This document shows, piece after piece, positions 1,401 through 20,573 of a stretch of 33,056 bases of DNA. The stretch covers positions 1 through 33,056 of the forward strand of contig NZ_JAJDJU010000024.1 in the NCBI RefSeq assembly GCF_020567705.1, read 5' to 3'. How positions within the stretch are numbered: position 1 is the stretch's first letter; each line of letters starts with the position of its first letter. The stretch comes from Acidocella sp. KAb 2-4. Lineage in GTDB: Bacteria > Pseudomonadota > Alphaproteobacteria > Acetobacterales > Acetobacteraceae. The notes under the pieces are model-generated. The model saw only the letters and a list, made by a program, of their open reading frames with translations. It searched no databases and was not told the origin of the DNA. A program made the position numbers and the translations under genes.

Positions 1401-1492
1401 GTCGGTCGCCTTGTACCAATCTCAATTCTACTTCCGTAGACAAGCCAGCCTCACGCGCCCCCGCCCCCAAGCTTTGGTGATTACAGCGCCCA

Positions 1493-2533
1493 TCAATTCA
1501 ACAGCTTGTCTTTTGCGATCGCGTCAAGCACTGCAGCGCCCCGCGCCCATGTTAGGTTCGAAGTGTGCGCCGTGCCTGCCTCGCGGAATTCTTGCTGGCA
1601 GGATGGTGCTTCCAGCACGGCCAATACGCGAGCCGCGATATCCTCCGGAGAGAACGGATCGCAGAAACATGCGGCCTGACCGCATGCTTCGCGCAGGGCG
1701 GGAATGTCTGAGGCCACAACAGGGCAACAGCAGGCCATCGCCTCCAATGTTGGCAGACCAAAGCCCTCATACCACGACGGAAAAACAAAACAGCCAGCAC
1801 CTTGATAAAGTGCCTTCAGCTCAGCATCTGTAACGCGCCCGGTGCAGTGCGCCGGCTGAGGTAGCACAGCCGTCCTAAATGCCCTGCCCCCCATACCTCC
1901 GACCAACACAAGGGGGATTCGGCGCTCACATAAACGCTGCGCAAGCAATCCCAACGCCGCCAAATTCTTATGCGCCGCCAGGGTGCCAACAGCCAAAACA
2001 TAGCGGCCTGGCTCCAGCTCATGGCGGGTGAGGATGGCGTTATCCGCGGCGATTTCGGACAGGTGATTGGCGCCTTCCGGAATCACCAGAACCTGCGCTG
2101 GCTCCGCGGGCAGGTGGCGCAAAATTTCCGCACGCGCGAATTCGGAAACAGTGACGATAATCGCCCCTCTTCGTATGAGCACGCTCTGCATGAGTTTATA
2201 CCAAAGTCGGAATTTGCGCGAATAGGCTTCAGGCGTGCTGAATACGCCCGCGTCGTGAATCACCACCAATTGTCGGCGCGCCAATAATGGCCCGGTGTTT
2301 CCGAGATTAATAAGCGGCCCATCAACGGCGCGAGGGAGGTCGAACTGCTCCCATCCCTGTCCTTGGTGAGCACCGACCTCCCGTGCCCCCAGCCATGCCG
2401 TCCCACCGCCGCGTGGCGTGAGCAACGCGTACCCCGGATCCCGCGTCTGCAGCGCGCGGGTGATCTCAACGGCAAAGCGCTGCACGCCTGAGAGCGGCTG
2501 TGTGGTGAAGCGGCCATTGATGCAGAGATTCAT
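1493..2533 (-). CDS. GT4-family glycosyltransferase (mannosyltransferase-like)
   Basis: A 346-aa family GT4 glycosyltransferase. The N-terminus has the GVQRFAVEITRAL helix seen in WbdA/MtfA-type mannosyltransferases of O-antigen and exopolysaccharide loci. The middle has VIHDAGVF and VTVSEFA. The C-terminal donor domain has YVLAVGTLAAHKNL and an intact E-x7-E motif in EGFGLPTLEAM, followed by the unusual ACCCPVV in place of the more common GCPVV. The start ATG overlaps the stop of the upstream Wzy-like gene (ATGA, 2530-2533), which implies translational coupling. It probably adds one sugar of the repeat unit assembled with the neighbouring GT4. The family call is firm; the mannose assignment is only a resemblance. 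Confidence 0.9.
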   Translation of the reverse strand: MNLCINGRFTTQPLSGVQRFAVEITRALQTRDPGYALLTPRGGGTAWLGAREVGAHQGQGWEQFDLPRAVDGPLINLGNTGPLLARRQLVVIHDAGVFSTPEAYSRKFRLWYKLMQSVLIRRGAIIVTVSEFARAEILRHLPAEPAQVLVIPEGANHLSEIAADNAILTRHELEPGRYVLAVGTLAAHKNLAALGLLAQRLCERRIPLVLVGGMGGRAFRTAVLPQPAHCTGRVTDAELKALYQGAGCFVFPSWYEGFGLPTLEAMACCCPVVASDIPALREACGQAACFCDPFSPEDIAARVLAVLEAPSCQQEFREAGTAHTSNLTWARGAAVLDAIAKDKLLN

Positions 2534-3960: not shown

Positions 3961-4318
3961 GGAGACAGCCCTCCAGGCAACGCGGCAGGCAACGCTCGGC
4001 GAAGCCGCCAGAATGACATAATGACGTTAAAACCGCCGAAGAAACGGAGCAACACCCTCATTCACCCGAACCGTATACCCCATTAGGGCCTAACATTACG
4101 GCTAATGGGCGATTGTTTTATCGCATCCGTCTCCGGTATTAATCCAAGAGCCTCCCTTCGGCTTCCAGCGGCTAAGTGCGCAGAAATAATCAGGAGTTCG
4201 CCGACATCGTCATTCAATTTCCGCGAGATACGAACCACCATGCGCAACGCGCCCAATGGCGGATCACGTTCACTCACCGCCCCCCTGCAAAAGGATCGGC
4301 GTCAATAAGGAGGTCGCG
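3961..4318. promoter_or_regulatory. Divergent intergenic region of the two polysaccharide operons
   Basis: About 358 bp separate the minus-strand wzy-like gene from the chosen start of the wzc-like gene. It must contain both promoters. Besides the inverted repeat at 4079-4109 I see no confident -35/-10 pair. The strong ribosome site AAGGAGG at 4307-4313 decides the wzc-like start at 4319; the longer open frame from 4256 has no such site. Confidence 0.5.
4079..4109. promoter_or_regulatory. Perfect 8-bp inverted repeat, candidate operator
   Basis: CCCATTAG (4079-4086) and CTAATGGG (4102-4109) are exact inverted repeats whose half-sites start 23 bp apart, about two helical turns. They lie between the divergent wzy-like (start 3960) and wzc-like (start 4319) genes. 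A dyad of this spacing in a divergent promoter region is what a dimeric repressor or activator would bind; a transcript hairpin is the alternative. Confidence 0.4.
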
Positions 4319-6772: not shown

Positions 6773-6804
6773 AACCTGTCATCCACTCATCTAGGAGCGA
6801 TGAA

Positions 6805-7161
6805 TTGGGCGATTTCGGGCACCGCGTCACCGACACTCTCCTGCGCAGCGAATTCCTGCCCGTAAGATTCCGCACCCGCCTGATGCGGGCGGTGGGATAC
6901 GACATCGATCCATCCGCCTGCTTATGGGCAGGCGCGATTCTGCGATCAAAAAAAACCAAAACCGTCATCAATGTATTCATAAATATCGGTTTCGTCACAA
7001 TACTCCCCAGCGTCACCGTGGCTAGTGGTTGCGTTATAGCAGCTAGTGCGGTCGTCACACGCCAAACGCAACCAAACGGCCTTTACGCGGGCACACCGGC
7101 GCGCGTGGTCCGCACCTTACCTTCATTTGCCGGGTCCGTGTGTCCGGAATCTGTATGTTAG
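6805..7161 (+). pseudogene. Left-handed beta-helix acyltransferase with an internal in-frame deletion
   Basis: A 118-aa frame whose two ends match WcaF/serine-acetyltransferase-like hexapeptide acyltransferases. The N-terminus has RTRLMRAVGYDIDPSACLWAGA and the C-terminus has VTILPSVTVASGCVIAASAVV followed by GLYAGTPARVV. Family members are about 180-190 aa. Here NVFINIGF-like sequence (VFINIGF) joins directly to VTILP, so the central coils that normally carry the catalytic His are missing, with no frameshift. TTG at 6805 is the likely start: AGGAG sits at 6793-6797, while the ATG at 6800 is out of frame and stops after 21 codons. It would have O-acetylated a sugar of the polymer; without the central coils it is probably inactive. 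The stop overlaps the ATG of the flippase, so translational coupling may have kept the frame open. Confidence 0.75.
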
Positions 7162-8636
7162 CCCATAAAGCAGCGCTGAGCAGTTCGTTAATGGTAACAG
7201 CCCGCCTGGCGACGCGCGCTGTTGACCTCTGCACGATGCTGATCCTCGCAAGACTTCTATCACCACTCGATTTCGGCCTTATTGCTATCGCAATGACTTT
7301 GATAACGCTCCTGGAAGCCGCGCTAGAACTTCCACTCAGTCAGGCGCTCGTTCAACTGCCCAGAATAGAGCCCCACCATTTCCACACTGCCTTCACGATC
7401 GGGCTTCTGCGAGGCGTTGCACTCTGCGTCATCGCCATGAGCCTCGCCCTGCCCTTCGATCGTTGGTATGGCCATCCCGAACTTACACCACTGATCCAGG
7501 CCCTGAGCCTCGCCCCTGCCTCACGCGGACTGCAAAACCCCCGCCTCGCCGAATATGCCAAAGAATTGAATTTCAAATACGAATTCTATCTTGAAATCAG
7601 CGGCAAGGCTCTGGCCTTCCTGGCGGGTAGCCTCACCGCCTATTTCTTACACACATATTGGGCCATCGCTCTCTGCACCATCGTCGCTCCCGCCAGCACG
7701 ACGCTAATGGGATACATCATCCTTCCTTACCGCCCCCGCCTATCACTACGCGATTGGCGGCTGTTCAGTGATTTCCTCGGCTGGTTCAGCCTTTCCCAAA
7801 TAATCATGGCGGTGAACTTCCAATCAGACCAGCTATTGCTGGGCAAACTCCTTCCTCCAGCGAAACTCGGACTGTTCAGCACCGCCAATAGCCTAACTTA
7901 CATTCCCCTTACAGCCCTATTTGGTCCTGTCCTGCGCCCGCTGCTCTCGGCGTTCACGGTACGACGCGACGACATAGCGCGACTGGGCCAGAGCTATCAA
8001 CACGCCGCCAGTGGAATCGTTTCCATAGGTCTACCGTTTCTCGTTGGGCAGGTCATCATCGCGCAACCGCTGATCATGGTTCTGCTCGGGCCAAAATGGC
8101 TGAGTGCCGCCTCCCTCTTCGAGTGGCTATCAATTAGCCTGATTCCTTATCTCTTTGGCCTGCTCCTAACACCATTAAGCATGGCGCTCGGACAAACCCA
8201 CGAAATCGCGACACGCAATATGTTACAGATCATGGTCAAACTACCTCTGGTGATCATCGGAGCGATTAATTATGGCTTTGCGGGCGTGATTGTAGCGCGA
8301 TTAATCTCCGAGTCCGTCACAGCGCTTTATTGCATGCTCAGTATCCGCAAGCTCTGCGGCCTATCACTTACCAGGCAATTTACAGTTAACCTGCGCGCCA
8401 TTATGTCCTGCGTCGCAATGCTGATTGTGGTATTGTCGTTGGATAGGACGATGTATTTTCCGCTCTCTCCATCATGGCAGCTACTTCGTCTAACATTGCT
8501 CATCGGCAGCGGGGTTATAAGTTACGCTGGATGTCTTCTGTTATCCTGGCGTTTAGCGGGGTACCCTGAGGGCCTGGAAGCCTTTGCCGTGCGTCTTCTG
8601 TGGCGACGCTCCTTGGCAAAACGGCGTATCGCCTGA
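7155..8636 (+). CDS. Wzx-type polysaccharide flippase (MOP superfamily)
   Basis: A 493-aa (498 from the GTG at 7140) membrane protein with about 12-14 hydrophobic helices across its length, of the lipopolysaccharide biosynthesis protein / oligosaccharide flippase family (MOP exporters). It would move undecaprenyl-pyrophosphate-linked repeat units across the inner membrane. The N-terminal pattern LATRAVDLCTMLILARLLSPLDFGLIA is characteristic of this family. ATG at 7155 overlaps the stop of the acyltransferase frame (7159-7161); the GTG at 7140 would add five residues. It lies between the chain-length regulator and a GT8 glycosyltransferase, consistent with a Wzx/Wzy-dependent pathway together with the polymerase-like gene on the other strand. 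Confidence 0.9.
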   Translation: MLAHKAALSSSLMVTARLATRAVDLCTMLILARLLSPLDFGLIAIAMTLITLLEAALELPLSQALVQLPRIEPHHFHTAFTIGLLRGVALCVIAMSLALPFDRWYGHPELTPLIQALSLAPASRGLQNPRLAEYAKELNFKYEFYLEISGKALAFLAGSLTAYFLHTYWAIALCTIVAPASTTLMGYIILPYRPRLSLRDWRLFSDFLGWFSLSQIIMAVNFQSDQLLLGKLLPPAKLGLFSTANSLTYIPLTALFGPVLRPLLSAFTVRRDDIARLGQSYQHAASGIVSIGLPFLVGQVIIAQPLIMVLLGPKWLSAASLFEWLSISLIPYLFGLLLTPLSMALGQTHEIATRNMLQIMVKLPLVIIGAINYGFAGVIVARLISESVTALYCMLSIRKLCGLSLTRQFTVNLRAIMSCVAMLIVVLSLDRTMYFPLSPSWQLLRLTLLIGSGVISYAGCLLLSWRLAGYPEGLEAFAVRLLWRRSLAKRRIA

Positions 8637-8712
8637 TGCTTAGGTGCTCACAGAAGACCACCATGGTATCCGGCGGACATAACTTGCCCACCGCAATCGG
8701 GAACGAGCGGGC

Positions 8713-9675
8713 ATGACACCTCATCGCTGTATCTGCTACACGACCGACACAGGTTATCTGTTTCCTACATTTGTAAGCGCCATACAGGCGCGGACGCACA
8801 CACCATCCGAGCTAGCCGATATCGCAATCTTCTGCATCGGCATTTCCTCAGAGCAAGAGAAGCATTTCAGTGCGGCCTGTGCCTCCGAAGACATTCGCCT
8901 GCTGCCTGTGGCGTCGGACAAGCTTGAAGGTGCAAACGCGATGCTTGCACGTCTTTTTCTTGACCGGCTAGTCCCCGATGAATACCACGACCTTTTATAT
9001 ATTGATGGTGATACGCAGATCAAAAATCTGTTGACACCGTTGCTTCTCGCCGAAGTTCCCGCCGGGCGTTTCCTCGCCGCCACCGACCCACTGAGTTTTT
9101 CGCTGCAATCAAGCGACTACAAAAGCAAGAGGCTGACCAGTTATTTTTCTGCAATCGGGCTAAATCCAGATAGACACAAGGAGTATTTTAATAGCGGCGT
9201 ATTGCGTATCAATCGGGCTGGATGGGACGCAACTGGCCGTGAAGCCTGGGCATTATATAAGACGTTACGCGGCCAATCACGTTACCCGGATCAAGACGCT
9301 CTCAATCTTGTGGCCATGGACCGCCGCATCCCCATGTCCCTCACATGGAATTTCCCCGTATTCCTTCGCAACGCCGGGTTGGAGCCGGAAATTGCTCCCC
9401 GGATCATCCATTACATGGGCAACCCGAAACCATGGCATGGCCAGTTCGCGCCCTGGTCATTCAGCGAATACGAAACCTATCTCCAGGCCATCAGGCGTTA
9501 TCCCGAACTCGCGCCTTACATCCCCAACATTCCGTGGCTGAAGAAGCTGAAATATTCAGCCCAGCAGAGCTACAAAAAGGTACTGGAAACGGCAACCTGG
9601 GGCTCTCAGAGCTTCCGTGGCGGGATCCTGCGTTACGAGCGTAGCCTTCTCCAGTCATCCACCGCTACGCCATAG
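8713..9675 (+). CDS. GT8-family glycosyltransferase
   Basis: A 320-aa GT-A fold glycosyltransferase of family GT8 (lipopolysaccharide galactosyl/glucosyltransferase type). The metal-binding DxD is D98-G-D100 in LLYIDGDTQI. The family motif FNSGVLRINRAGW follows at about residues 158-170, then YPDQDALN, and the C-terminal HYMGNPKPWHG segment carries the conserved His and Lys-Pro-Trp of GT8 enzymes. The last ~60 residues are basic and probably membrane-peripheral. The start ATG has only a weak upstream purine stretch and lies 76 bp after the flippase. It is last in the plus-strand operon, followed by a hairpin at 9677-9691. It probably adds a hexose to the repeat unit; which one cannot be told. 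Confidence 0.9.
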   Translation: MTPHRCICYTTDTGYLFPTFVSAIQARTHTPSELADIAIFCIGISSEQEKHFSAACASEDIRLLPVASDKLEGANAMLARLFLDRLVPDEYHDLLYIDGDTQIKNLLTPLLLAEVPAGRFLAATDPLSFSLQSSDYKSKRLTSYFSAIGLNPDRHKEYFNSGVLRINRAGWDATGREAWALYKTLRGQSRYPDQDALNLVAMDRRIPMSLTWNFPVFLRNAGLEPEIAPRIIHYMGNPKPWHGQFAPWSFSEYETYLQAIRRYPELAPYIPNIPWLKKLKYSAQQSYKKVLETATWGSQSFRGGILRYERSLLQSSTATP

Positions 9676-9676
9676 T

Positions 9677-9691
9677 CGCTGCACCGCAGCG
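9677..9691 (+). terminator. Hairpin directly after the GT8 stop codon
   Basis: CGCTGC (9677-9682), loop ACC, GCAGCG (9686-9691) form a perfect 6-bp stem beginning one base after the TAG of the GT8 gene. No T-run follows, so if it ends the polysaccharide operon it would be a non-canonical terminator or a 3' stabilising hairpin. Confidence 0.4.
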
Positions 9692-9744
9692 GAAAGCAGC
9701 CACCGCCCCCATCCGTGCATACTTTGCCAATCATCAAACTAACC

Positions 9745-9789
9745 GCCATGGCTGCATTATGTTTGCCATGTGCGCATGGGTGCTATGTT
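9745..9789 (+). promoter_or_regulatory. Repeated GCCATG half-sites upstream of the first NCS1 permease
   Basis: GCCATG occurs at 9745-9750 (as part of palindromic GCCATGGC) and again 20 bp later at 9765-9770. An inverted copy, CATGG, lies at 9775-9779. Downstream, TATGTT at 9784-9789 could be a -10 element; TTGCCA at 9763-9768 is the nearest -35-like hexamer, with a short 15-bp spacer. The pattern suggests an operator overlapping the promoter of the permease gene. The promoter assignment is weak. Confidence 0.3.
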
Positions 9790-9820
9790 TTTTCCATTAA
9801 CGTCAAAACCTGGAGGAAAT

Positions 9821-11272
9821 ATGGTAACGCTCGCTGATACCGAGGCCGGAGGTGTCCGCAATGGGCCACGGCTGGGCATAGAGACCCGCTCCATCGACTA
9901 CGTGCCCGAGGCTGAGCGCCACGGGAAAGTCTCCACTCAAGGGCCATTCTGGTTCCTTGGCAATTTCCAATTTTTCACCATCGCCATCGGCTTCATCGGA
10001 CCCGGCATGGGCCTCGGCCTCGGCGCAACCACCTTGGCCTCGGTACTTGGTATCTTGTTCGGAACGCTGTTCATGGCCTTCCACGCGAGCCAGGGTCCGG
10101 ATCTTGGTCTGCCGCAGATGATCCAGTCTCGCGCGCAGTTCGGTTATCGCGGCGTTATCATCCCACTCCTGGGCACGTTGTTCACCTTCGCGGGTTTCAA
10201 TGTGGTAGACACGGTGCTGATCTCCCAAGGCCTCAATCACCTGTTCGGCTGGGGCATCCCCATTGTGGTGCTCGCACTTGGCGTTCTCGCGGCGGTCATC
10301 GCCATCTTCGGGCATGACTGGCTGCACATCATCTTCCGCGTTCTGTTTTGGGCCAGCCTGCCGCTTTACCTCATCATTTCTGGCGCCATCCTGCTCGGAC
10401 ATGTCGTGCCCAGCACCACGCCGCATACCTCGTTCGGCTGGGTTGCCTTTGCCGCGCAATTCGCCGCCTGCGCTAGCTACAACATCACCTACGCTCCGTA
10501 TGTGTCGGACTATACGCGCTACCTGCCGCGCGGACGTAGCCGCAGCGCCCTGGTCTGGAATGTGTATATCGGCGCGTCGGCCTCGGCCATCTGGCTCACC
10601 GTGCTCGGCGCGTGGCTCGCCACCTATTTCGGCGCCTCCGACGGCATGGTCGCCACAAGCACTGCAGGCAATGCCGTGTTCCCGCATCTGGGCACACTCA
10701 CAGTGCTGGTCTCCGTCGCGGCGCTCACGGCGACCATGGGGCTGAACGCCTATTCCGGCATGCTCACACTTGTTACTGGGCTCGATTGTTTCGCCGATGT
10801 CCCCTTCTCACGTGGTGTGCGCGTGGCCGGAGTGCTGGCGTTGGCGGCGCTGTGGCTGGCGGTATCGCTCGCGCTGAACGCCAATGCCATCAACGCGCTT
10901 TATGATGCCCTTTCCGTCATGCTCTATCTGCTTGTGCCGTGGACGGCGGTGAACCTGATGGATTATTTCTTCGTCCGCAAAGGCCATTACGCCATTAGGG
11001 ATTTCTTCTCCCTCACCGGCATTTATGGCGCCTGGGCGTGGCGCGGGTTGCTCGCCTACATCATTGGCTTCGCCGCCAGCGTGCCCTTCTTCAATCTTGC
11101 CGGCGTGTATGAAGGCCCAATCGCGCATGCCCTTGGCGATGTCGATATCTCCTGGGCTCCGGGGCTGCTGGTTGCGGGCGTGGTGTACTACCTTATTACT
11201 CGCAATCTCGATCTCGCGGCTGAGCGCCCAGCCATCGATGCGAGCGACAAAGCCTTCGGCATCAACCTTTGA
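9821..11272 (+). CDS. NCS1-family nucleobase/cation symporter
   Basis: A 483-aa inner-membrane transporter of the NCS1 family (cytosine, purine, allantoin, hydantoin, thiamine permeases), with about 12 membrane helices. Supporting motifs are the N-terminal RSIDYVPEAER, HASQGPDLGLPQMIQSRAQFG after helix 2, and YAPYVSDYTRYLP in the middle, all typical of NCS1. ATG at 9821 is chosen because GGAGG is placed about 5 nt upstream; the open frame from 9770 lacks a site. It is followed by a convergent LysR gene and then gbuA, so the substrate may be a guanidino or nitrogen-rich heterocyclic compound, but NCS1 specificity cannot be read from sequence. A second, distinct NCS1 gene lies at 26058. Confidence 0.92.
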   Translation: MVTLADTEAGGVRNGPRLGIETRSIDYVPEAERHGKVSTQGPFWFLGNFQFFTIAIGFIGPGMGLGLGATTLASVLGILFGTLFMAFHASQGPDLGLPQMIQSRAQFGYRGVIIPLLGTLFTFAGFNVVDTVLISQGLNHLFGWGIPIVVLALGVLAAVIAIFGHDWLHIIFRVLFWASLPLYLIISGAILLGHVVPSTTPHTSFGWVAFAAQFAACASYNITYAPYVSDYTRYLPRGRSRSALVWNVYIGASASAIWLTVLGAWLATYFGASDGMVATSTAGNAVFPHLGTLTVLVSVAALTATMGLNAYSGMLTLVTGLDCFADVPFSRGVRVAGVLALAALWLAVSLALNANAINALYDALSVMLYLLVPWTAVNLMDYFFVRKGHYAIRDFFSLTGIYGAWAWRGLLAYIIGFAASVPFFNLAGVYEGPIAHALGDVDISWAPGLLVAGVVYYLITRNLDLAAERPAIDASDKAFGINL

Positions 11273-11277
11273 GCCGA

Positions 11278-11307
11278 TTGGCGCGGGAGTTACCCCTCCC
11301 GCGCCAA
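11278..11307. terminator. Bidirectional hairpin shared by convergent NCS1 and lysR genes
   Basis: TTGGCGCGGGAG (11278-11289) and CTCCCGCGCCAA (11296-11307) are perfect 12-bp inverted repeats around the 6-nt loop TTACCC. The hairpin starts 5 bp after the NCS1 stop. It contains the last codons and the stop of the LysR gene (Leu-Ala-Arg-Glu-Gly-stop), so part of the terminator is coding. No clear T-run follows on either strand, but the stem is strong and could stop both transcripts. Confidence 0.65.
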
Positions 11308-12195
11308 CATCTCCGCCGCCAGCGTGGTGAATAGCCGCACGGACGGTAATGCCAGTTTGGCCTGGTCATAAGCCATCTCGAATGGCGCGGCGTAAGTGAG
11401 TTCCTCGGCCAGTAGCCGCTTCAACTCGCCGGCCCCTTCCCATCTTCTGGCGTAATGCGCGGGTAGATATCCCATATAATCGCCCGATAAAATCAGCTGC
11501 GCCGCCGCCTCCATATTATTCACCGTCGCCACCGGGCGGTCACTCCGGATATGCTTGGTGTCCCGCGCCCCCCAATACCCGCGTGAGATCAGCCTTTGCT
11601 GCGCGATCATCTCCTGCGTCACCTGTCCGTCTCGCAGACCAAAGAACGGATGCCGCCGCCCACAATAGAAGAAATGCGGCTCGTCATATAACCGCGTATA
11701 GTTCAGGCCGAGCAGCATCTTTGGAAAACTCCCGATCGCGACATGAAGCTTTCCTTCTATAAGATCTCGCAGCAACTCGTTGGGCGGCTTCACCTCAACC
11801 GACAGTTGCACGTCTCCCCGCGCGCTGGTGAATTTATGCAACAACGCGTTAAGACCAGCATTGGCATCCGTAATAGTGTTGTCGATTAGGCCAATGGACA
11901 GCGTGCCACGCACCTTAGCCCGCAGGGCGCTGGCGCGCATATCAAACCCGTCTATGGCCGAAAACAGCTTTTGTGTTTCAGAGAAGATCGTCTCCCCATC
12001 CTCGGTGAGTTTGAATCCCGCCCGCCCACGCTGGCAGAGCTTCACGCCCAGGCGCGTCTCCAGCGCGGCAATCTGATTGCTGATCGTCGAGGCGCTGACA
12101 TTCAGCACCGTTTGGGCCGCCGTAAATCCGCGCGCCTCCACCACCGTGGCGAAGACACGCAGCAGCCGCAGGTCAACCGTATCGAGCCTTGCCAT
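11290..12195 (-). CDS. LysR-family transcriptional regulator (likely regulator of gbuA)
   Basis: A 301-aa LysR-type regulator. Residues about 8-67 form the winged helix-turn-helix, with LRLLRVFATVVEARGFTAAQ and ASTISNQIAALETRLG. Residues about 90-300 are the type 2 periplasmic-binding effector domain. ATG at 12195 has GGAGAAGGA upstream on the minus strand. The gene is divergent from the guanidinobutyrase gene across a 198-bp region, the usual arrangement of a LysR activator and its target. In Pseudomonas aeruginosa, guanidinobutyrase and guanidinopropionase are each controlled by a neighbouring LysR protein (GbuR, GpuR), so a GbuR-like role is likely here. That role is inferred from synteny, not from effector-domain residues. 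Confidence 0.9.
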   Translation of the reverse strand: MARLDTVDLRLLRVFATVVEARGFTAAQTVLNVSASTISNQIAALETRLGVKLCQRGRAGFKLTEDGETIFSETQKLFSAIDGFDMRASALRAKVRGTLSIGLIDNTITDANAGLNALLHKFTSARGDVQLSVEVKPPNELLRDLIEGKLHVAIGSFPKMLLGLNYTRLYDEPHFFYCGRRHPFFGLRDGQVTQEMIAQQRLISRGYWGARDTKHIRSDRPVATVNNMEAAAQLILSGDYMGYLPAHYARRWEGAGELKRLLAEELTYAAPFEMAYDQAKLALPSVRLFTTLAAEMLAREG

Positions 12196-12297
12196 GTCGC
12201 CATCCTTCTCCGCAACAACCTGCCCGTTTCATCAAAAAGAAAATAACGCGGTATGCGGCCTCAATGCCAGGGCCTTGCATTGCATGGCGATCATTGT

Positions 12298-12313
12298 TTT
12301 GACTGGCATCAAA
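12298..12313. promoter_or_regulatory. Dyad TTTGA-N6-TCAAA, candidate LysR binding site
   Basis: TTTGA (12298-12302) and TCAAA (12309-12313) are inverted around six bases and include a T-N11-A arrangement (12299 to 12311), the consensus layout of LysR regulators. The dyad lies in the 198-bp lysR/gbuA divergent region, about 80 bp before the gbuA start. TTGACT inside it also looks like a -35 hexamer, but no good -10 lies 16-18 bp downstream. Confidence 0.4.
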
Positions 12314-12393
12314 GTGAATGCCCGCGCCCCGTTATGTAAGCCCCCGCGGCGGCGCAGTAAACCCTGCCAAACACCAGCCGGGAGAGATGCGCC

Positions 12394-13341
12394 ATGAACC
12401 ATTCCGATTTGCCCCAGCCCCTGAGCGGCAATGTGATGCCCCGCTGTGGCGGCATCGCTTCGATGATGCGCCTGCCGGTGTATGAAAGCGCCGCCGGGCT
12501 GGATGCCTGCTTCGTCGGCGTGCCGTTCGATCTGGGCACCTCCAACCGCACCGGCACACGCTTCGGGCCGCGCCAGATCCGCGCCGAATCCGTCCTGCTG
12601 CGCCCCTATAATGTCGCCACCCGCAAAGGGCCGTTCGAGCACTTGCGCGTCGCCGATATCGGCGACGTCGCCGTAAACCCATATAATCTTCACGACTCCA
12701 TCGCGCGGATCGAGGCTAAATACGACGAGCTTCTGACCCACGGCGCCAAGCCCATCACACTCGGCGGCGACCATACCATCGCGCTGCCAATCCTGCGCTC
12801 TCTGGCGCGCAAATACGGCAAAGTCGGGCTCGTCCACGTCGATGCCCATGCCGACATCAACGACACCATGTTCGGCGAGAAGATCGCGCACGGCACCCCG
12901 TTCCGCCGCGCCGTCGAGGAAGGGCTGATCGAACCCGCGCGCACGGTGCAAATTGGCCTGCGTGGAACCGGCTATGCGGCTGACGAATTCGATTGGGGGC
13001 GCGCCCAGGGCTTCACCGTAGTCGAGGCGCAGGAATGCTGGAACAAATCCATGGCGCCGCTGATGCGCGAGATCAAGACCAAGCTCGGCGCCGGCCCCGT
13101 CTATGTGAGTTTCGATATCGACAGCCTCGACCCCGCCTACGCCCCCGGCACCGGCACACCGGAAATCGGCGGCCTGACAGTGCCGCAAGCGCTGGAGATC
13201 ATCCGCGGGCTCGACGGGCTTGAGATCATCGGTGGCGACGTAGTGGAAGTCTCGCCACCTTACGATCCGCAAGGCACCACGGCGCTGGTAGCGGCCAACA
13301 TCGCGTTCGAAATTCTGTGCATCCTGCCGGGCATCGGCTGA
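12394..13341 (+). CDS. gbuA: Guanidinobutyrase / agmatinase-family ureohydrolase
   Basis: A 315-aa Mn-dependent ureohydrolase, close in length and sequence pattern to P. aeruginosa 4-guanidinobutyrase, which hydrolyses 4-guanidinobutyrate to GABA and urea. The N-terminal PLSGNVMPRCGGIASMMRLP resembles that enzyme. Binuclear metal ligands are all present: H127 (GGDHT), D150, H152 and D154 (VDAHAD), D241 and D243 (SFDIDSLDP). The segment MFGEKIAHGTPFRRAVEEG is also shared with GbuA-type enzymes. GGAGAG lies 7 nt before the ATG. It is divergent from a LysR gene; its last 82 bp overlap the convergent radical SAM gene antisense. Guanidinobutyrase is preferred over agmatinase or guanidinopropionase from overall resemblance and from the aldehyde dehydrogenase and amine dehydrogenase further right. 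Confidence 0.85.
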   Translation: MNHSDLPQPLSGNVMPRCGGIASMMRLPVYESAAGLDACFVGVPFDLGTSNRTGTRFGPRQIRAESVLLRPYNVATRKGPFEHLRVADIGDVAVNPYNLHDSIARIEAKYDELLTHGAKPITLGGDHTIALPILRSLARKYGKVGLVHVDAHADINDTMFGEKIAHGTPFRRAVEEGLIEPARTVQIGLRGTGYAADEFDWGRAQGFTVVEAQECWNKSMAPLMREIKTKLGAGPVYVSFDIDSLDPAYAPGTGTPEIGGLTVPQALEIIRGLDGLEIIGGDVVEVSPPYDPQGTTALVAANIAFEILCILPGIG

Positions 13342-15065
13342 ACGGTCCGTCCGAGCGCCAGCGGCGGGGTTTGCGCAAGACCGCTGCTCCATAGCATGGC
13401 GATCAACCCCGCCATTAGCGGCTCACGCCAATATCCATCCGCGCCGGCCAAGCCGGCGAAGTCTTGCCATGCCGCGAAATGCGCTGCCGCCGCCGGCGTG
13501 AAGCCGAAGCACGACGGATCGGGAAGTTGCCAGTCCGGCGCAATGACGTCGACACCGAACGCGCAGAACAGCGCCTCACGAGCATGGCCACACGGACCAG
13601 CACAACCGCAGCGCACCAGAGAGGGCGAGGCGTCGTCAATAGTCTCGCCCAAAGCCGCGAAGTTTAGCGGCGGGATGAAATCTGAAAACAACTCATCCAC
13701 GTCATGATGCGGTGGCGCCACATTTGGCGTGAGAAAGACGAAGCGCTCTCCCCGCCCCCCCTGCGGAACGGCACAAAGCCTTAAAGCGGATCCAGAATCG
13801 TTTGCGACGTCCATCACATAATCATGCGGTAGACGGCGCCCGCCAGCAGCCTGCGCCACCACAATCCGGGCCTTGGAAAACCGTTTCAGAAAATGCAGGG
13901 TGATGCTCCCCAGATCAGCAGCATGTTCATCCTCGATCCCCAGGATGAACACATCCCGCGACGCCGGGGCTGCGAGCGGCGCGGGCGTTTCGATCGATGC
14001 CGCCTCAGCCTTGCGGCGCAGACGCTCAAACTCATTGAACCACACCGCCTTGTTCAAGCCCAGGCGCGGCGCCACGTCCACGGCTTGGCGCTCCATCGCG
14101 GCCACCACCTTGCGCAACTCCCCAGCCGGCAAGGTGTAAAGCGACAACCCCGGTGGAAAGCGTACAGTATTCACGCTCACGCGCACGTTCCACTCATCAG
14201 CCATGGCGCAGTATTCGCCAAACTCCTCCCAATTCGGCCGCATCAGACAGAAGGTCAGCGAGAGCGTCGTGCCCCGCTCAAGCGCATAGTCACGAAAGCG
14301 GCGCACATTGCGCATCACTTCATCATACCGCGTATTCAGGCGGATACGCTCGATCGTTTCCTTGCGCGCGCCATCCAGCGACACCGCGAAACTGAACGGC
14401 AGACGCCCAAGCAACCCTTCGATACGCGCATCATATTGCGTGCCGTTGGTGGTGACATGGCAGGGCGTCTGCAGTCCATCTTGCAACATCATGTCCCATA
14501 TCTTGTAATGCTCAACAGCAAGAAATGGCTCCCCGCCGAGAAACTTCGCCTGGCTGAGATGCGGCAGATATTTTCTGAACTGCTCCAAAACATCGTCGCT
14601 ATACGGGCGCGCCATCGGCGGTCGCGCCTCGCGCCTGGCACGGATGGCAGAGGAAAAGTCGCCATCGCACATCACGCATTCAAGATTGCATGAATTGCTG
14701 ATCGAGAACTCAATCCGTCGTGGCCAGCGCGGTGGAGTTTCGCTAACGTCGAAGCGGTCGAATTGGCGCATCACCGCCCCGCCGAACCAGCCTTCCAACG
14801 ATTGGAACCGGCAAAAACCGCAGCTCTCCGGCAGTTCGTAACGCTCCAGCGACGCGCGCAGAGATACCGCCTGCGCACTGCTCCAGATCTCATCAAGCGT
14901 CTGTTGCGTGATATTACCCGCTGGCTGCGACCAGTTATGGCAGCAGACACGGGCATTCCCGCGCCGATCAAAATACAGATTGGTGTGCGGGGCATAACAC
15001 AAAGACCGCACTGCCTTGCGCGAAAAATCCCGCCCCTGATCGTAAGTGGAGAAATCCTGCGTCAC
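13260..15065 (-). CDS. Radical SAM/SPASM protein fused to a degenerate glycosyltransferase domain
   Basis: A 601-aa cytoplasmic protein. Residues 1-90 look like an N-terminal SPASM-type auxiliary cluster domain, with C23, C41/C42, a GNI segment at 50-52, and C82-x2-C85. Residues about 115-350 are a radical SAM barrel with the C126-x3-C130-x2-C133 iron-sulfur motif and a KFLGGEPFL segment typical of these enzymes. Residues about 370-575 align without gaps over at least 40 residues to the glycosyltransferase encoded at 19737-20573, but the DxD is replaced by T446-P-N448. The cysteine motif C486-x-C488-x3-C492-x8-C501 is kept. GTG at 15065 overlaps the stop of the upstream gene. It is last in the operon, and its final 27 codons overlap gbuA antisense, suggesting that the original stop was lost. 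Reaction and substrate are unknown; the operon suggests modification of a glycan or of the exported proteins. Confidence 0.85.
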   Translation of the reverse strand: MTQDFSTYDQGRDFSRKAVRSLCYAPHTNLYFDRRGNARVCCHNWSQPAGNITQQTLDEIWSSAQAVSLRASLERYELPESCGFCRFQSLEGWFGGAVMRQFDRFDVSETPPRWPRRIEFSISNSCNLECVMCDGDFSSAIRARREARPPMARPYSDDVLEQFRKYLPHLSQAKFLGGEPFLAVEHYKIWDMMLQDGLQTPCHVTTNGTQYDARIEGLLGRLPFSFAVSLDGARKETIERIRLNTRYDEVMRNVRRFRDYALERGTTLSLTFCLMRPNWEEFGEYCAMADEWNVRVSVNTVRFPPGLSLYTLPAGELRKVVAAMERQAVDVAPRLGLNKAVWFNEFERLRRKAEAASIETPAPLAAPASRDVFILGIEDEHAADLGSITLHFLKRFSKARIVVAQAAGGRRLPHDYVMDVANDSGSALRLCAVPQGGRGERFVFLTPNVAPPHHDVDELFSDFIPPLNFAALGETIDDASPSLVRCGCAGPCGHAREALFCAFGVDVIAPDWQLPDPSCFGFTPAAAAHFAAWQDFAGLAGADGYWREPLMAGLIAMLWSSGLAQTPPLALGRTVQPMPGRMHRISNAMLAATSAVVPCGS

Positions 15066-16042
15066 GGCGTACAGGTCTGCCGCGCCTGAAAGTCCCGCTG
15101 GTACTTGGCCTGCATAAGCCCCGCGGCACGGGCGAGTTGTCCGGCATTCTGGTCGGCCTGATCAGCGCTCTTGGCGGCAAACCACAGCTCGAGATCAGCA
15201 TATGCCCCATCGATGACAAAGCTCGTATACGTAATGGTCGGTCCGGTAATCTCAGTGGAATCAGCGAGAAATTTCGCGTTATCTGCAACCACAGACAGTG
15301 CCGCCTTCAGCGCATCAGCCATCGTATCGTAACGAATACTGTGCGTATCTGCTTCTTCCCCGAACAGTGCGGTCTGGAACTTCGGATCGTTCAACTCCGT
15401 GGCGAGTTGGCCGTTGAACGCTGCGGCTGTCACAAAGCCATTATTCATCGTATCCCGCGCCAGCACCCAACTCGCCGGCCCTTCTGACGCGATAATCTTC
15501 TTGGCCTGCGTGAACTTTACCGTCCGCAGTTCGGCCGAAGTCCGCTTCAGCAATTGCAAATCCAGGTAGCGGTCTGGATTGTATTTCAGTGTGTTAACGC
15601 CCTCGGCATAAATCTCCGCTTGTTGTTCAAGCTTATCGACCTGCCGGTTCACCTCATTCGCATTTTGGCCATAGCGATCAGCGGAAAATTGAGCCGCCGC
15701 CTTCAGCAAATCTGTCAACCCCTTGGTACCCAACCCATGAGCATCTGCCAATTGCGCCTGATTTTTGGCCGCAAGATCACGCTGTTGCTGGATTTCCCTG
15801 AGATCGGCATCAATCCGCGCTTGCGCCACGGTGCAACTCAGCGGTGCCGGCGCATCCGGTACACAGGCGCCGCCACTGGCATGATAACCCGCGACGCAGC
15901 GGCAATGGATAATGGTCGCATCCGCCGTTTCTTCTGTCTTATACGGCGCGGCATGGGCGGGGCATGACGCAGACTGCGCCCGCGCCACACCGCCAGCGGC
16001 CACCGCCGCGAACGCCGCAACCAATATAAAACGCGCCCTCAC
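15062..16042 (-). CDS. Exported cysteine-motif protein of unknown function
   Basis: A 326-aa protein I do not recognise. Residues 1-22 are a Sec signal peptide (ARA-QS cleavage at about 22/23). The mature N-terminus has a small cysteine module, with C27, C47-x-C49, C60 and C70, and the pattern CRCVAGYHASGGACVP, which resembles an EGF-like or similar disulfide-bonded loop. C324 near the C-terminus makes six cysteines. Residues about 75-140 are predicted coiled coil rich in Gln, Ala and Lys; the remainder is mixed helix. The GTG start overlaps the stop of the preceding exported protein (GTGA), and its own stop overlaps the GTG of the radical SAM gene. Position in the operon suggests a periplasmic or surface substrate or partner of the glycosyltransferases or radical SAM protein. 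That is inference. Confidence 0.75.
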   Translation of the reverse strand: MRARFILVAAFAAVAAGGVARAQSASCPAHAAPYKTEETADATIIHCRCVAGYHASGGACVPDAPAPLSCTVAQARIDADLREIQQQRDLAAKNQAQLADAHGLGTKGLTDLLKAAAQFSADRYGQNANEVNRQVDKLEQQAEIYAEGVNTLKYNPDRYLDLQLLKRTSAELRTVKFTQAKKIIASEGPASWVLARDTMNNGFVTAAAFNGQLATELNDPKFQTALFGEEADTHSIRYDTMADALKAALSVVADNAKFLADSTEITGPTITYTSFVIDGAYADLELWFAAKSADQADQNAGQLARAAGLMQAKYQRDFQARQTCTP

Positions 16043-16749
16043 TTGCTGCCGCCACCCGCATCGAGCACAGAAATCACCTGCTTGGCGCGCTGCTGCTTCG
16101 CATCGTCGGCCTGCTGGGCTTTATAAGTCGTCCAGGTTTTTTGCGACTCCGCCTGTTGCAGCTGGTTATACGTATTTGTCAGTGTCTGTGACGACGCGTT
16201 CGGATCGCTTTTCACAGCATCCCATTGCTGCTGCGCCTGTTGCGCCTGCTGCGCGGCCGCGCTGGCGGCGGCATCAGCCTGATCCGCCTGACTCGAAAGC
16301 TGTTGATATTGCTGGTCATTGAGCACGGCGGCTGGTTCCTGCTCCACCGGCTGGGCCTCCGGCGTGGGCGGCTCCGGTGTCGGCGCATTCACTGTGGTAT
16401 CATCGGGTCCGCGGCCATTGTCATAACCCTGCCCCGTGGTCTCTGAGCCATTGGTCAGATTTTGCAACTGCTGAAAGGCCGAACCCGCCGGCGCCGCGCC
16501 GCCGCCCTGCGAAGGCGCGAACTCGGGCCCGGTGGCATTTTGCGCACCAGGGTTAAGCTGCACCGGCTGCTGCCCACCATTTTCGGCGCCCCCCGTGGGC
16601 TCGCCATTATTATCAACCGGCCCGCTCTCACTATTATAAGCGGTCGGCGCGGCATCCTGCGCGGCGGCGCTCTGCACAAAGCTGACCGGCAGCGCGAACC
16701 CGGTGCCCAGCAGCACACGCCTCGTCAATCTCAATTTCGGGTCCGTCAT
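16039..16749 (-). CDS. Exported Gln/Ala-rich low-complexity protein of unknown function
   Basis: A 236-aa protein with a signal peptide at residues 1-30 (AAA-QD cleavage). The twin arginine at R10-R11 (LTRRVLLG) is compatible with Tat export but not decisive. Residues about 31-145 are low complexity, rich in Asn, Gly, Pro, Gln, Ser and Thr, with a PEPPTPEAQP stretch. Residues about 145-230 are a Gln/Ala-rich coiled coil. There are no cysteines in the mature part and no domain I recognise. AGGAGG overlaps the stop of the upstream triple glycosyltransferase and serves this ATG, so translation is coupled. The Ser/Thr/Asn-rich segment would be a plausible acceptor for glycosylation by the operon's transferases; nothing in the sequence proves it. 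Confidence 0.75.
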   Translation of the reverse strand: MTDPKLRLTRRVLLGTGFALPVSFVQSAAAQDAAPTAYNSESGPVDNNGEPTGGAENGGQQPVQLNPGAQNATGPEFAPSQGGGAAPAGSAFQQLQNLTNGSETTGQGYDNGRGPDDTTVNAPTPEPPTPEAQPVEQEPAAVLNDQQYQQLSSQADQADAAASAAAQQAQQAQQQWDAVKSDPNASSQTLTNTYNQLQQAESQKTWTTYKAQQADDAKQQRAKQVISVLDAGGGSK

Positions 16750-16758
16750 TGCCGCCTC

Positions 16759-19740
16759 CTAGCCGCCGAACAAAACGCTATCATAGCGTTCCGCCATCGA
16801 CAAAACAGAAAAACTCCGTACCGCATGGGCCCGGGCCGCGGCGCCCATGCGCGCGCGCTGCGTCTCGTCGCGCAACAGGGTCGTGACGCGGCGTGCCATC
16901 GCCTCGGCGGTGTCCGCCAGATAGCCGGTTTCGCCGTGGATAACCTGCTCCGCCACGCCGCCATCGGGTTGGGCGACCACCGGCAAGCCCATGGCCATGG
17001 CCTCCGACGAGGCGTTAGGGCACCCCTGGCGGCGCCCAGTGAGCAGGAAAACCCGGAACAGGCGCAGAAACGGCCAAGGATCGTCGCAAGGTCCCGTAAA
17101 GCGCAGGCCAGGAACCGCCTCCCCCATTAGCGCCTGCGCATAAGGCACCGAGCGCGCATCAGGTCCGCCCACCACCATCAGCGTGGCCCCTGGCACGCGC
17201 GCATGCAGCTTGCGCGCGACCTCGACGAGCATCTCCACGTTCTTATCCGGCACCAGACGGCAGATGGTGCCAACCACCAGCGCCGGGTTAAAGCCGCGTG
17301 GCGGCAGCGTCCAGGGAGCGGGCAACGGCACGAAGCTCGGCGGCACGGGCGCCGCGAGCGGAGCCACGATGTTCTTCGCGCCCCGCGCCTCTCCGCCTTT
17401 ATATAGACTGACGAAGCGATCCATCCGCGCGAAATATTGGGCGGGAGACAGGGCAACGCGCCGCCCAACCCCCTCAGCCGCCGCCAATTCGTCGAACAGC
17501 ATCGGCCCCGGGCTGACATCGATCAGCCGGATGGGCGAGGTTTCCAGCAGTTTGGCGAGCAGCAGCTTGAGTTCCGGGGCGACATTCCAGAAGCACACCG
17601 CGCGCAGCCGGTAGCGCGCCAGCCAGCTCAGCACCGCCTCGGCCTGGGCCGCCAGCGGCAACCCCGCGGCGGAAAGCAGCTTCGCCCCGGCCAGGGCGCG
17701 GACATGCATGTCCAACGCCGCGCCAAAAACCCCCACGCACAGCTTGCGCCCCGGCGCCAAGGCCGCGGCCAGGCGGACCAGCGACGTGGCCGGGCCGCCA
17801 TGCTCCAGCGCCTGGGTGAGGATCAGCGCGCCGGTCCAGCTTTCATCCAGCCCCCGCGGCACCGCGCCAAGCAGCCGCCATAGCTGCGGGATCAGTCGCG
17901 GTTCCAGCGCTTCGCCGGGGAGCACCCGCGCACCGCCCGCCGCGCGGTCGAGAATCGCCTCGGCATAGGCGGCGGCATCATCGGGCGCCGCGATCAACGT
18001 CACGCCCTCCGGCATTTCGCGCGCCCCGCCAACATCCGACGCCACAACCGGGCAACCGGCCGCCAGCGCTTCCAGCATGGCAACACTATAGCCCTCATAG
18101 GCCGAGGTGTTCAGCAACACGTCGAAGGCGGCGTAATACCCGGCGGCGGCATCCAGCGCGCCGGGGCAGATGACGTCGGCCACCACATCAGCCTCCACCG
18201 CCGCGCGCATGAATGCCTCATAAGCCGCGCGGCCCGAGCCCCATTGGTGGTCCCAGCCGCCCAACACCAGCAGCCGCGCCTTCACCCCCGCTGCCTTCAC
18301 CGCGGCCAGCACGCCCACCGCCCGCTGATACGCCTTTTGCAGCTTGAACTGCCCCACCATGCCGATCAGCAGCGTGTCGGCGCTGATCCCATGTTGGCGG
18401 CGCAGCGCGGTGCGGGACTTGGCCAGTTCCTCGGCCGAGGGGCGGCTCTGCAACTCGTGACGGATCACGGAGAGCGGCCGGGTGAGCCCGCTCTCCCGCG
18501 CCTGCGCCGCCACGGCATCGGCACAGGCCACCACCAGCGGCACCATCGGCGTGTTATAGCGTACCACCGAATCCTGCCACCCTGGGCGGGCATTATGCAG
18601 CACCGGGATGGTGCGCACCCCCTGCGCCCAGAAAAACGCCAGATCCTCCGCACTGATGAGATGGGTGTGCAGCATCGTGCCCGCCGCCAACACCTCCAGC
18701 GCAACGGAGCGCAGCTTCTCCACCCGCCCGCCTCGTGGCCGATGCAGCGAAACACCGTGCGGCAGGGGCAGTTCCATCGGCGCTTCGCCGATGACATGCA
18801 GGCGGCACACCGCCTCCGGCGCCAACGCCCCGAGCACATCGAGCACAATCCGCTCGGCCCCGCCGGGGGCAAGCGCGGGCAACAACACATCCAGCCTCGA
18901 TTTATGCGCCGCCGGCTCATGCCTCAGCGCCGCCGGGCGGGCGGGCGGCACCACGAAGGGCTCGTAGATATCGGCCAGCCCATGGGCGCGATACAATTCG
19001 TGCAGCGTCGATCCCACTGGCGGGGCATCCTTGTCCAACGCCAAGCCGGTTAGAGGCTCGCCATTGAGCTGGCCATTCTGCGCGGCCAGCGTGCGCCACA
19101 CCTCGTTCATCCAATGCACGGCGTACCACGCGCGCGGGAATTCCCGCCGCCCCTCGATGAACGGGCGAATCTCGTTCCAGTGATCGAGATTGGTCATTTC
19201 CGGCACGATCGCGCCCTGCAGCCCGGCCGCGGCAATATGCTCGTTCAGCAGATGGATCGGCAGCAGCCAGGGCGTGTCCGGCCCGGCCACCGCCTCGGTC
19301 GCCTCATACAGGCCCGCCAGAAACCGGCTGCCCTTGGGGCATTGCATCACGCTGCCCACCGCGCCGAGCCGGTGCGGGCGAAAGGCGTAATCCTGGTTGA
19401 AGTCGAGCGGCTTCAGCGCCGTCACATCCATGTCGGCCCAGATGCCGCCATGCTCATACAACACCTTGTAGCGGAACAGATCGGAGAACACGCCGCCGAC
19501 ACTGCCCTTGCCGATGCCAAAGCCCGGCTCCGCCGCGGCCTTGGGGATGATGCGCGCGCGCGGAAAAATCTGCTCGGCATCGCGCAGCACCACCCCTTTC
19601 GGCACCTGCCCGGTCAAATCGTCATAAGCCCACAGGGTTACGCGATGCCCCTGGGCCTGAAAGGAGGCGAGGGCGAGTCGCTCCAGTCCCGAAAGTTTTT
19701 CACCCAGCCACATGGCATGGACCGGCGGCAAATGGCTCAT
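16759..19740 (-). CDS. Triple-domain glycosyltransferase (GT32-like + two GT4)
   Basis: A 993-aa protein with three glycosyltransferase units. Residues 1-270 are GT-A with the sugar-binding DxD motif of GT32/capsular-type enzymes: FSDLFRYKVLYEHGGIWADMD, with D103 and D105. Residues about 278-610 are a GT4 unit starting at LLPALAPGGAERIVLD, with an intact E-x7-E in YEGYSVAMLEAL. Residues about 630-993 are a second GT4 unit with GTICRLVPDKN and RRQGCPNASSEAM, where the first Glu of E-x7-E is Gln. ATG at 19740 is chosen because it overlaps the stop of the upstream gene as ATGA; the frame remains open upstream to 20055, but that part is a shadow of the upstream gene. It could build an oligosaccharide of up to three sugars in one polypeptide. 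Acceptors and donors are unknown. Confidence 0.88.
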   Translation of the reverse strand: MSHLPPVHAMWLGEKLSGLERLALASFQAQGHRVTLWAYDDLTGQVPKGVVLRDAEQIFPRARIIPKAAAEPGFGIGKGSVGGVFSDLFRYKVLYEHGGIWADMDVTALKPLDFNQDYAFRPHRLGAVGSVMQCPKGSRFLAGLYEATEAVAGPDTPWLLPIHLLNEHIAAAGLQGAIVPEMTNLDHWNEIRPFIEGRREFPRAWYAVHWMNEVWRTLAAQNGQLNGEPLTGLALDKDAPPVGSTLHELYRAHGLADIYEPFVVPPARPAALRHEPAAHKSRLDVLLPALAPGGAERIVLDVLGALAPEAVCRLHVIGEAPMELPLPHGVSLHRPRGGRVEKLRSVALEVLAAGTMLHTHLISAEDLAFFWAQGVRTIPVLHNARPGWQDSVVRYNTPMVPLVVACADAVAAQARESGLTRPLSVIRHELQSRPSAEELAKSRTALRRQHGISADTLLIGMVGQFKLQKAYQRAVGVLAAVKAAGVKARLLVLGGWDHQWGSGRAAYEAFMRAAVEADVVADVICPGALDAAAGYYAAFDVLLNTSAYEGYSVAMLEALAAGCPVVASDVGGAREMPEGVTLIAAPDDAAAYAEAILDRAAGGARVLPGEALEPRLIPQLWRLLGAVPRGLDESWTGALILTQALEHGGPATSLVRLAAALAPGRKLCVGVFGAALDMHVRALAGAKLLSAAGLPLAAQAEAVLSWLARYRLRAVCFWNVAPELKLLLAKLLETSPIRLIDVSPGPMLFDELAAAEGVGRRVALSPAQYFARMDRFVSLYKGGEARGAKNIVAPLAAPVPPSFVPLPAPWTLPPRGFNPALVVGTICRLVPDKNVEMLVEVARKLHARVPGATLMVVGGPDARSVPYAQALMGEAVPGLRFTGPCDDPWPFLRLFRVFLLTGRRQGCPNASSEAMAMGLPVVAQPDGGVAEQVIHGETGYLADTAEAMARRVTTLLRDETQRARMGAAARAHAVRSFSVLSMAERYDSVLFGG

Positions 19741-20573
19741 GGCGTTGTCTCCAGAAAGCGGGCGATATTGTCCCAATGCGGCCAGCCAGCGCGCCCCACG
19801 CCGCCATTGATGAGATGCGCCGCCACCGCTTGGGGCAATGGCAGGTGGCGGGCGGATATGGCCAGCTGCGCCGGGCGCGCGCCCGCGCGCAGGCCGGGCG
19901 GCAGACCGGCATAGCAGTCGAGAATGGTGTTGAAGCGCGCGGGCAGCATCGGCGCCGCCCGCCAGCCCGCGCGCCACACGGCAGCGGCCAGCGCGGCCTG
20001 GTCCCGCGTCGCCCAATAGGGGCGCGTGAACATCGTCGTGGCGAGGGCGTGCCAATCATCCAGCAGGGTTTCCGCCCCGGCGCGGGCGACAAAGACCCCG
20101 CCATTCCACAAGCGGAAATCGCCAGGCACATCCACGCCAAACTCGCAATACAGCGCCTCGCGCAGATGCCCGCACGCACGCCCGCAGCCGCAACGCACGG
20201 CATAAGGCGAAAACTGGTCCAGCGTGGCATGGTCGGGCGCAAACGCCACCGGCGCGGACACCGCGGCAAACACCGCATCCATCTCAGGCGTCAGCGCGAT
20301 CACATCGGAGTCAAGATAGCAAAACGGCGCCGCCAGCCCCACGATCCGGTGCAGCCCCGTCTTCAACCAGATCGCGGCCTGATGCGCCGACAAGCCCTGC
20401 GGCACCTCCACCGCCACGCGGTCATCATGCGGGGCGGGCGGGTCTCCGGCACGCTGCACCACCAGCACACGCTGGCGCGTAACCCGCCGGAGCGCGGCCA
20501 AAGCCGGCGCAAGCAACGCCACATGCGCCGCCCCAGCAACTGCAAACACGAAACGCGGCGCCCCTGTTGACAT
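19737..20573 (-). CDS. GT-A glycosyltransferase-like protein with a four-cysteine motif
   Basis: A 278-aa protein with a GT-A-like layout: an N-terminal nucleotide-binding half, a DxD motif at D88-S-D90 in FCYLDSDVIAL, and a WNGGVFV segment at about 156-162 like the NxG motif of GT8-like enzymes. Between them lies C128-x-C130-x3-C134-x8-C143, in VRCGCGRACGH and REALYC, which I do not know from standard glycosyltransferases and which could bind zinc. The same motif, but not the DxD, recurs in the radical SAM protein at 13260-15065. ATG at 20573 has no clear Shine-Dalgarno sequence. It is first in the minus-strand operon, and its stop overlaps the next gene. Being a sugar transferase is likely from the fold signs; substrate unknown. 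Confidence 0.75.
   Translation of the reverse strand: MSTGAPRFVFAVAGAAHVALLAPALAALRRVTRQRVLVVQRAGDPPAPHDDRVAVEVPQGLSAHQAAIWLKTGLHRIVGLAAPFCYLDSDVIALTPEMDAVFAAVSAPVAFAPDHATLDQFSPYAVRCGCGRACGHLREALYCEFGVDVPGDFRLWNGGVFVARAGAETLLDDWHALATTMFTRPYWATRDQAALAAAVWRAGWRAAPMLPARFNTILDCYAGLPPGLRAGARPAQLAISARHLPLPQAVAAHLINGGVGRAGWPHWDNIARFLETTP

Follow-up and report, generated by a model that had tools for sequence, protein, structure and literature searches.

We identified a compact cassette of five genes in a 33,056-nucleotide stretch of DNA from Acidocella sp. KAb 2-4 (hereafter the window, which is the entire contig G000:C17 of a 3.1-Mb genome). The genes, all on the minus strand, encode in this order a glycosyltransferase of putative GT-A type (GT1), a three-domain glycosyltransferase (GT2; GT1 and GT2 are our names for these two proteins), a predicted exported protein with a putative twin-arginine translocation (Tat) signal, a predicted exported protein with a four-cysteine module (Cys-module protein) and a radical S-adenosylmethionine (SAM) enzyme. 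In a conservation sample of 38 genomes of the genus, the window's own included, four carried all five families side by side. Starting from the gene set, its packing and co-occurrence, its domain fusions and its motifs, we tentatively favor the reading that the cassette is a self-contained glycoconjugate system, in which the Tat-signal protein would be the likeliest acceptor and would be glycosylated in the cytosol before export. The features of the cassette, by position in the window, are as follows.

19737..20573, minus strand: GT1, a 278-aa glycosyltransferase of putative GT-A type, without a match in Pfam, NCBIfam or PHROGs
20166..20192, minus strand: CxC..CxH motif of GT1 (C128, C130, C134, H136), kept across the aligned GT1-family domains
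16759..19740, minus strand: GT2, a 993-aa three-domain protein, from Pfam matches
16039..16749, minus strand: Tat-signal protein, 236 aa, of no family at the cut-offs used, with an invariant RR
16342..16500, minus strand: conserved island of the Tat-signal protein (residues 84-136, including TNGSE), from identity contrast
15062..16042, minus strand: Cys-module protein, 326 aa, an EGF-like four-Cys module followed by a long helix-like part, with a signal peptide recognized by eye
15863..15964, minus strand: four-Cys module (C27, C47, C49, C60), from invariant Cys and the structure model
13260..15065, minus strand: radical SAM protein, 601 aa, above the cut-offs of PF04055 and PF13186
14811..14999, minus strand: twitch module of the radical SAM protein (C23, C41/C42, C82, C85), from Cys invariant in four relatives and a BtrN profile match
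13350..13958, minus strand: degenerate GT1 domain of the radical SAM protein (about residues 394-569), from similarity to GT1
13260..13349, minus strand: tail of the radical SAM protein (residues 573-601 and the stop), antisense to an agmatinase gene

The first-pass annotation had described five same-strand genes joined by ATGA or GTGA overlaps or a 9-bp gap, and this was confirmed for all five genes: an ATGA overlap between GT1 and GT2, 9 bp between GT2 and the Tat-signal gene, and 4-bp GTGA overlaps at both the Tat-signal/Cys-module and the Cys-module/radical SAM junctions. GT2 was started at the ATG at 19740, giving 993 aa; a TTG-started open reading frame (ORF) reaching 20055 was rejected as overlong. 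Because the same genes recurred, equally tightly packed, in further genomes of the genus, the frames are judged to be genuine. Pairwise ratios of nonsynonymous to synonymous divergence (dN/dS) for the cassette genes were 0.18-0.49, barring two Tat-signal protein pairs with genome G008 (0.69 and 0.73) and one value left undefined by saturated dS; with dS above 1 in many pairs, all of these values are rough. When the window was compared with genome G007, the enzymes were 67-69% identical and the exported proteins 45-46%, the pattern expected if exported parts diversify under conserved enzymes. None of the five cassette genes was identified by Pfam and NCBIfam family scans as encoding an exporter, a flippase or a lipid carrier.

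Rare co-occurrence of the five families, which would have refuted the first-pass annotation, was not what we found. GT2 was present in 6 of the 38 genomes, the Cys-module protein in 5, and the Tat-signal protein in 5 plus a fragment in G034; a close relative of the radical SAM protein was present in 4, with weaker, distant radical SAM matches in others. The three genes for GT2, the Tat-signal protein and the Cys-module protein form a core shared by five genomes, and in the sixth genome with GT2 (G016) the contig stops 85 bp past this gene. Both exported-protein genes follow GT2 in 5/5 genomes in which the contig continues beyond it. In G009, these three genes were present, and the radical SAM and GT1 genes were found neither adjoining them nor elsewhere at the thresholds used; the genome of G016 likewise gave no match to either. 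The radical SAM and GT1 genes were both present in four genomes and jointly absent from the other two that carry GT2, and this pair is an add-on to the core. Among 397 genomes of the family, drawn from 102 genera, GT1 was found in 3, the Cys-module protein in 4 and the GT32 domain (E up to 1e-35) in 4, all of them from this genus; in a draw across the phylum, GT1 was found in 1 of 398 genomes (E up to 1e-10), the window's own. The cassette is conserved yet narrow, the full set being found within one genus of the Acetobacteraceae only. The window's genome is placed in this family by its 16S, which was 93.3% identical to an rRNA copy carried by an Acetobacter aceti plasmid, the top match among 549 matching plasmid records.

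GT1 belongs to no sequence family that we could find. With E up to 1 allowed, no Pfam model matched it, GT8 (PF01501) included, and in the same scan a neighbor in the window (8713-9675) did match PF01501. Its profile matched no sequence of a solved structure at E up to 1. The folds nearest to its model, which is of low confidence, were GT-A enzymes of GT8/GT24 type (glycogenin and the catalytic domain of UGGT). The CxC..CxH motif was retained in all aligned GT1-family domains (six GT1 and three degenerate domains), and also in the outside relative L035; it is a candidate metal knuckle.

Three relatives of GT1 were found beyond the genus, on a plasmid of Methylomagnum ishizawai, on the IMG/VR contig L035 and in an Acidobacteria metagenome-assembled genome (MAG; L034). 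The Methylomagnum relative (38.8% identity) is fused to two GT4 domains, and two genes away lies a gene annotated as N_Twi_rSAM, whose twitch radical SAM product is 38% identical to that of the window. In L035, GT1 is fused to a GT32 domain that is 41-44% identical to the GT32 domain of GT2, and a radical SAM gene (33% identity) adjoins it. No such radical SAM gene was present within the 18.7 kb examined of L034; overall, 6 of the 7 loci with GT1 relatives have a gene for a twitch radical SAM protein nearby. These fusions and neighbors suggest that the radical SAM, GT1, GT32 and GT4 domains are tied into one glycan route. When the exported proteins of the window and of G008 were used as queries, no match was found in the three outside loci at E up to 1e-4. 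Scans of viral contigs with a first GT1 profile and with a Cys-module profile yielded no relative, and a second GT1 profile matched L035 alone. As separate observations, L035 carries at 4606-12441 three twitch-type radical SAM genes, and two that look radical SAM-like by eye, beside the GT1-GT32 fusion; twitch radical SAM genes are also common in the viral-contig collection (IMG/VR), where one scan found 100 relatives, of which 80 were kept (L035-L114).

GT2 comprises a GT32-like domain (about residues 7-260), a GT4 domain (about 280-600) and a second GT4 domain (about 636-990). It scored 31.4 bits against PF04488 (GT32-like; gathering cut-off 23) and 142.6 bits over two stretches against PF00534 (GT4; gathering cut-off 26.4). 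A DMD motif lies at residue 103 and the single full EX7E at 549; in the second GT4 domain, Q replaces the first E.

The radical SAM protein consists, in order, of an N-terminal twitch module, a radical SAM core, the degenerate GT1 domain and the antisense tail. PF04055 matched residues 121-285 with 55.4 bits (gathering cut-off 29.5), and PF13186 matched residues 23-85 with 35.5 bits, above its cut-off. The cysteines of the CX3CX2C core (C126, C130, C133) and of the twitch module were invariant across four relatives. Profile matches to BtrN (4m7s and 4m7t; E 9e-6 and 1e-5) were strongest over the twitch module, with no stretch passing alone. The degenerate domain was 32% identical to GT1 over 183 aa (E 2e-18); it has lost LDSDV, WNGGVF and RDQA, has no DxD, and retains CxC..CxH. 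Of the four genomes, three (the window, G007 and G020) have it at the end of the protein with its frame open; it is absent in G008, where the protein is 375 aa long and has no GT1-like end. Between G007 and G020, dN/dS was 0.48 for the degenerate domain and 0.24 for the radical SAM core. The gene overlaps a convergent agmatinase gene (12394-13341) by 82 bp (13260-13341), so that its last ~28 codons read the agmatinase gene antisense; the stretches that match it in G007, G029 and G005 are agmatinase 3' ends.

The two exported proteins, which the first-pass annotation had called signal-peptide proteins of unknown family, indeed reached no family cut-off in Pfam, NCBIfam or PHROGs. The Tat-signal protein is built of a signal, a variable linker, a conserved island and a helix-like end. 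Its RR, which we take, by eye, to be the twin-arginine motif, is invariant across five relatives, and TatC is encoded in the window's genome. Mean pairwise identity among five sequences was 0.59 in the island, compared with 0.24 in the preceding linker. In G008, the RR lies ~195 residues inside an open frame; the ~190 extra residues upstream (L023 6778-7340) contain no stop and matched nothing in Pfam at E up to 1, and this extension may represent either a domain fusion or a frame called too long. In G034, a match of 43 positions to the C terminus of the Tat-signal protein (L129 8682-8810, which is G034:C4:30681-30809) falls within a 73-aa frame and is perhaps a remnant. For the Cys-module protein, no Pfam match above cut-off was found, and all four module cysteines were invariant across five relatives. 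Its model (predicted local distance difference test score, pLDDT, 42) was usable over about residues 24-62 only, the long part being modelled as helices with low confidence. The match in G008 contains one stop; there, the Cys-module gene overlaps, by ATGA, a following gene for a 261-aa protein with a signal-like start (L023 8825-9610; no Pfam match at E up to 1).

The surroundings and order of the cassette vary. Beyond GT1, the same neighbors (ArgE-, LysR-, DUF1028- and RidA-like genes) flank the cassette in the window and in G007, and by eye the flanks differ in G020, G008 and G009. The order GT1, GT2, Tat-signal, Cys-module, radical SAM is common to the window, G007 and G020; that of G008 is a circular permutation (radical SAM, GT1, GT2, Tat-signal, Cys-module), and the dead GT1 follows the radical SAM core at the same place where G008 carries GT1. 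Both gene orders, and with them the dead GT1, would be accounted for by a tandem duplication and a later loss; a tree left the joining point of the degenerate domain among the GT1s unplaced. In G009, the gene divergent from GT2 matches Stf0 sulphotransferase (L128 13583-14347), and a similar gene was seen by eye at the same place in G016 (L141 6035-6913). An exopolysaccharide-type cluster lies at 339-9675 of the window and encodes two GT4 proteins, Wzz/kinase-like and polysaccharide transporter-like proteins and a GT8 protein. It was considered as a part of the system and set aside, none of its five proteins tried having a relative in the other loci of the genus (E up to 1e-10).

In the reading that we favor, the two glycosyltransferases and the twitch radical SAM enzyme would form one cytosolic line that builds a glycan, of which the radical SAM enzyme would alter one sugar. 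The Tat-signal protein would be the acceptor and would leave, once modified, by the Tat pathway, which carries proteins already completed in the cytosol. The Cys-module protein would be exported by Sec and serve as its partner beyond the inner membrane. The minimal version would be GT2 with the two exported proteins, and the radical SAM/GT1 add-on would change the glycan. In favor of this reading, the three core genes stay together at different flanks. The tight core, the Tat signal and the absence of any gene for an exporter or lipid carrier make the Tat-signal protein the best candidate acceptor; this assignment, like the sugar chemistry, the order of steps, the export routes (judged by eye) and the partner role, is what we infer. 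A more elaborate version, in which a glycan with a sugar altered by the twitch radical SAM enzyme, itself steered by its fused, catalytically dead glycosyltransferase domain, would be placed on a carrier protein in the cytosol, and the resulting glycoprotein would go by Tat export to a disulfide-bearing partner from the same operon, is improbable as a whole.

Several observations weigh against the favored reading. The enzyme module exists in outside loci that lack the exported proteins, and the ABC transporter and UbiA-type genes near GT1 in Methylomagnum (annotated) and in the Acidobacteria MAG (by eye) suit a lipid-linked glycan. In the window, 3.6 kb separate the exopolysaccharide cluster from the cassette. 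Residues 8-26 of GT1 form a hydrophobic stretch, which the model assigns to the first strand and helix of the fold. A general link between twitch radical SAM and GT32 genes was rejected, the two being co-located in 1 of 80 and 1 of 38 loci of the viral collection, on the same contig. Finally, acceptor and product are proposals, and six genomes are few.

The strongest alternative, close in confidence to the favored reading and likewise only possible, is that the enzymes serve to synthesize or decorate a surface glycan linked to lipid (exopolysaccharide or lipopolysaccharide), which the exported proteins hold, anchor or present without being modified themselves. The UbiA and ABC transporter genes just described and the exopolysaccharide-type genes of the window speak for it. 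However, the five exopolysaccharide proteins of the window that were compared have no relatives (E up to 1e-10) in the genus's other loci, the cassette has no exporter gene, and a mere glycan-binding protein would need no Tat signal.

Radical modification of the system's own exported proteins was among the options that the first-pass annotation had offered; in its fullest form, the enzyme would act on the Tat-signal protein (for example, on the conserved island) like a maturase of ribosomally synthesized and post-translationally modified peptides (RiPPs), with the glycosyltransferases glycosylating the same protein. The island itself would fit such a target, and the S of TNGSE is kept in the four genomes with radical SAM and GT1 and lost in G009, a single contrast. 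This proposal did not hold up well and is unlikely: the island, and indeed both exported proteins, persist in G009, and two outside loci have a twitch radical SAM gene near GT1 and no match to the exported pair. Since the enzyme route is found in loci where the exported proteins are not, and G009 keeps the exported pair and GT2 but neither radical SAM nor GT1, a sugar or glycan is a more likely substrate of the radical SAM enzyme than are the exported proteins. It is similarly unlikely that the genes are mere neighbors, inherited or moved as a block with enzymes and exported proteins in separate processes: occurrence of any part of the set in only six genomes and at several places would fit a mobile block, but the packing of GT2, Tat-signal and Cys-module genes endures at 45-60% protein identity, GT1 and the radical SAM gene are absent jointly, and fusions connect GT1 with GT32 and GT4.

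If the favored reading is true, one five-gene locus unites radical SAM chemistry, a family-less type of putative GT-A glycosyltransferase and Tat export, and glycosylation before Tat export becomes testable. Even as a plain surface-glycan system, the cassette would offer GT1 as a definite partner with which the sugar chemistry of twitch radical SAM enzymes could be tested. The fusion of a dead glycosyltransferase to a radical SAM enzyme clearly exemplifies a pseudo-enzyme put in a new place. The system had been taken to be undescribed, and a search of open-licence papers (titles and starts of abstracts) agreed with this, finding no description of the five-gene set, of the GT1 type or of the radical SAM-dead glycosyltransferase fusion. 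Most enzyme parts, taken singly, are of known kinds.

Among known systems, the best NCBIfam match of the radical SAM protein was N_Twi_rSAM (NF033640), with which it shares a twitch module ahead of the radical SAM core; at 151.2 bits, however, it falls below the cut-off of 170, so that membership is not claimed, and it differs by the fused degenerate GT1 domain. BtrN, a radical SAM enzyme of aminoglycoside biosynthesis, also has a twitch auxiliary-cluster module, matched by profile; the match is weak (E ~1e-5), and the module is C-terminal in BtrN but N-terminal in the cassette protein. GT8/GT24-type enzymes resemble the low-confidence GT1 model in fold, whereas GT1 has no sequence-family match and bears CxC..CxH (compared on the GT1 side alone). 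The TIGR04157 glyco_rSAM_CFB peptide cassettes, which presumably, from the family name, pair a radical SAM enzyme with a glycosyltransferase, likewise hold both enzyme types in one locus, and GT2 scored 29.5 bits; this is far under the cut-off of 400, and our cassette has no short precursor peptide among the listed ORFs (at least 80 aa). Set against the short precursor of a RiPP, its exported proteins have 236 and 326 aa. With the flagellin glycosyltransferase FlmG, which, according to the excerpted text of PMC7591256, O-glycosylates exported proteins in the cytosol, the substrates and the export route differ, and for the cassette glycosylation is what we propose; judged from the same excerpt, the likeness lies in a dedicated, cytosol-acting glycosyltransferase for proteins of the cell surface.

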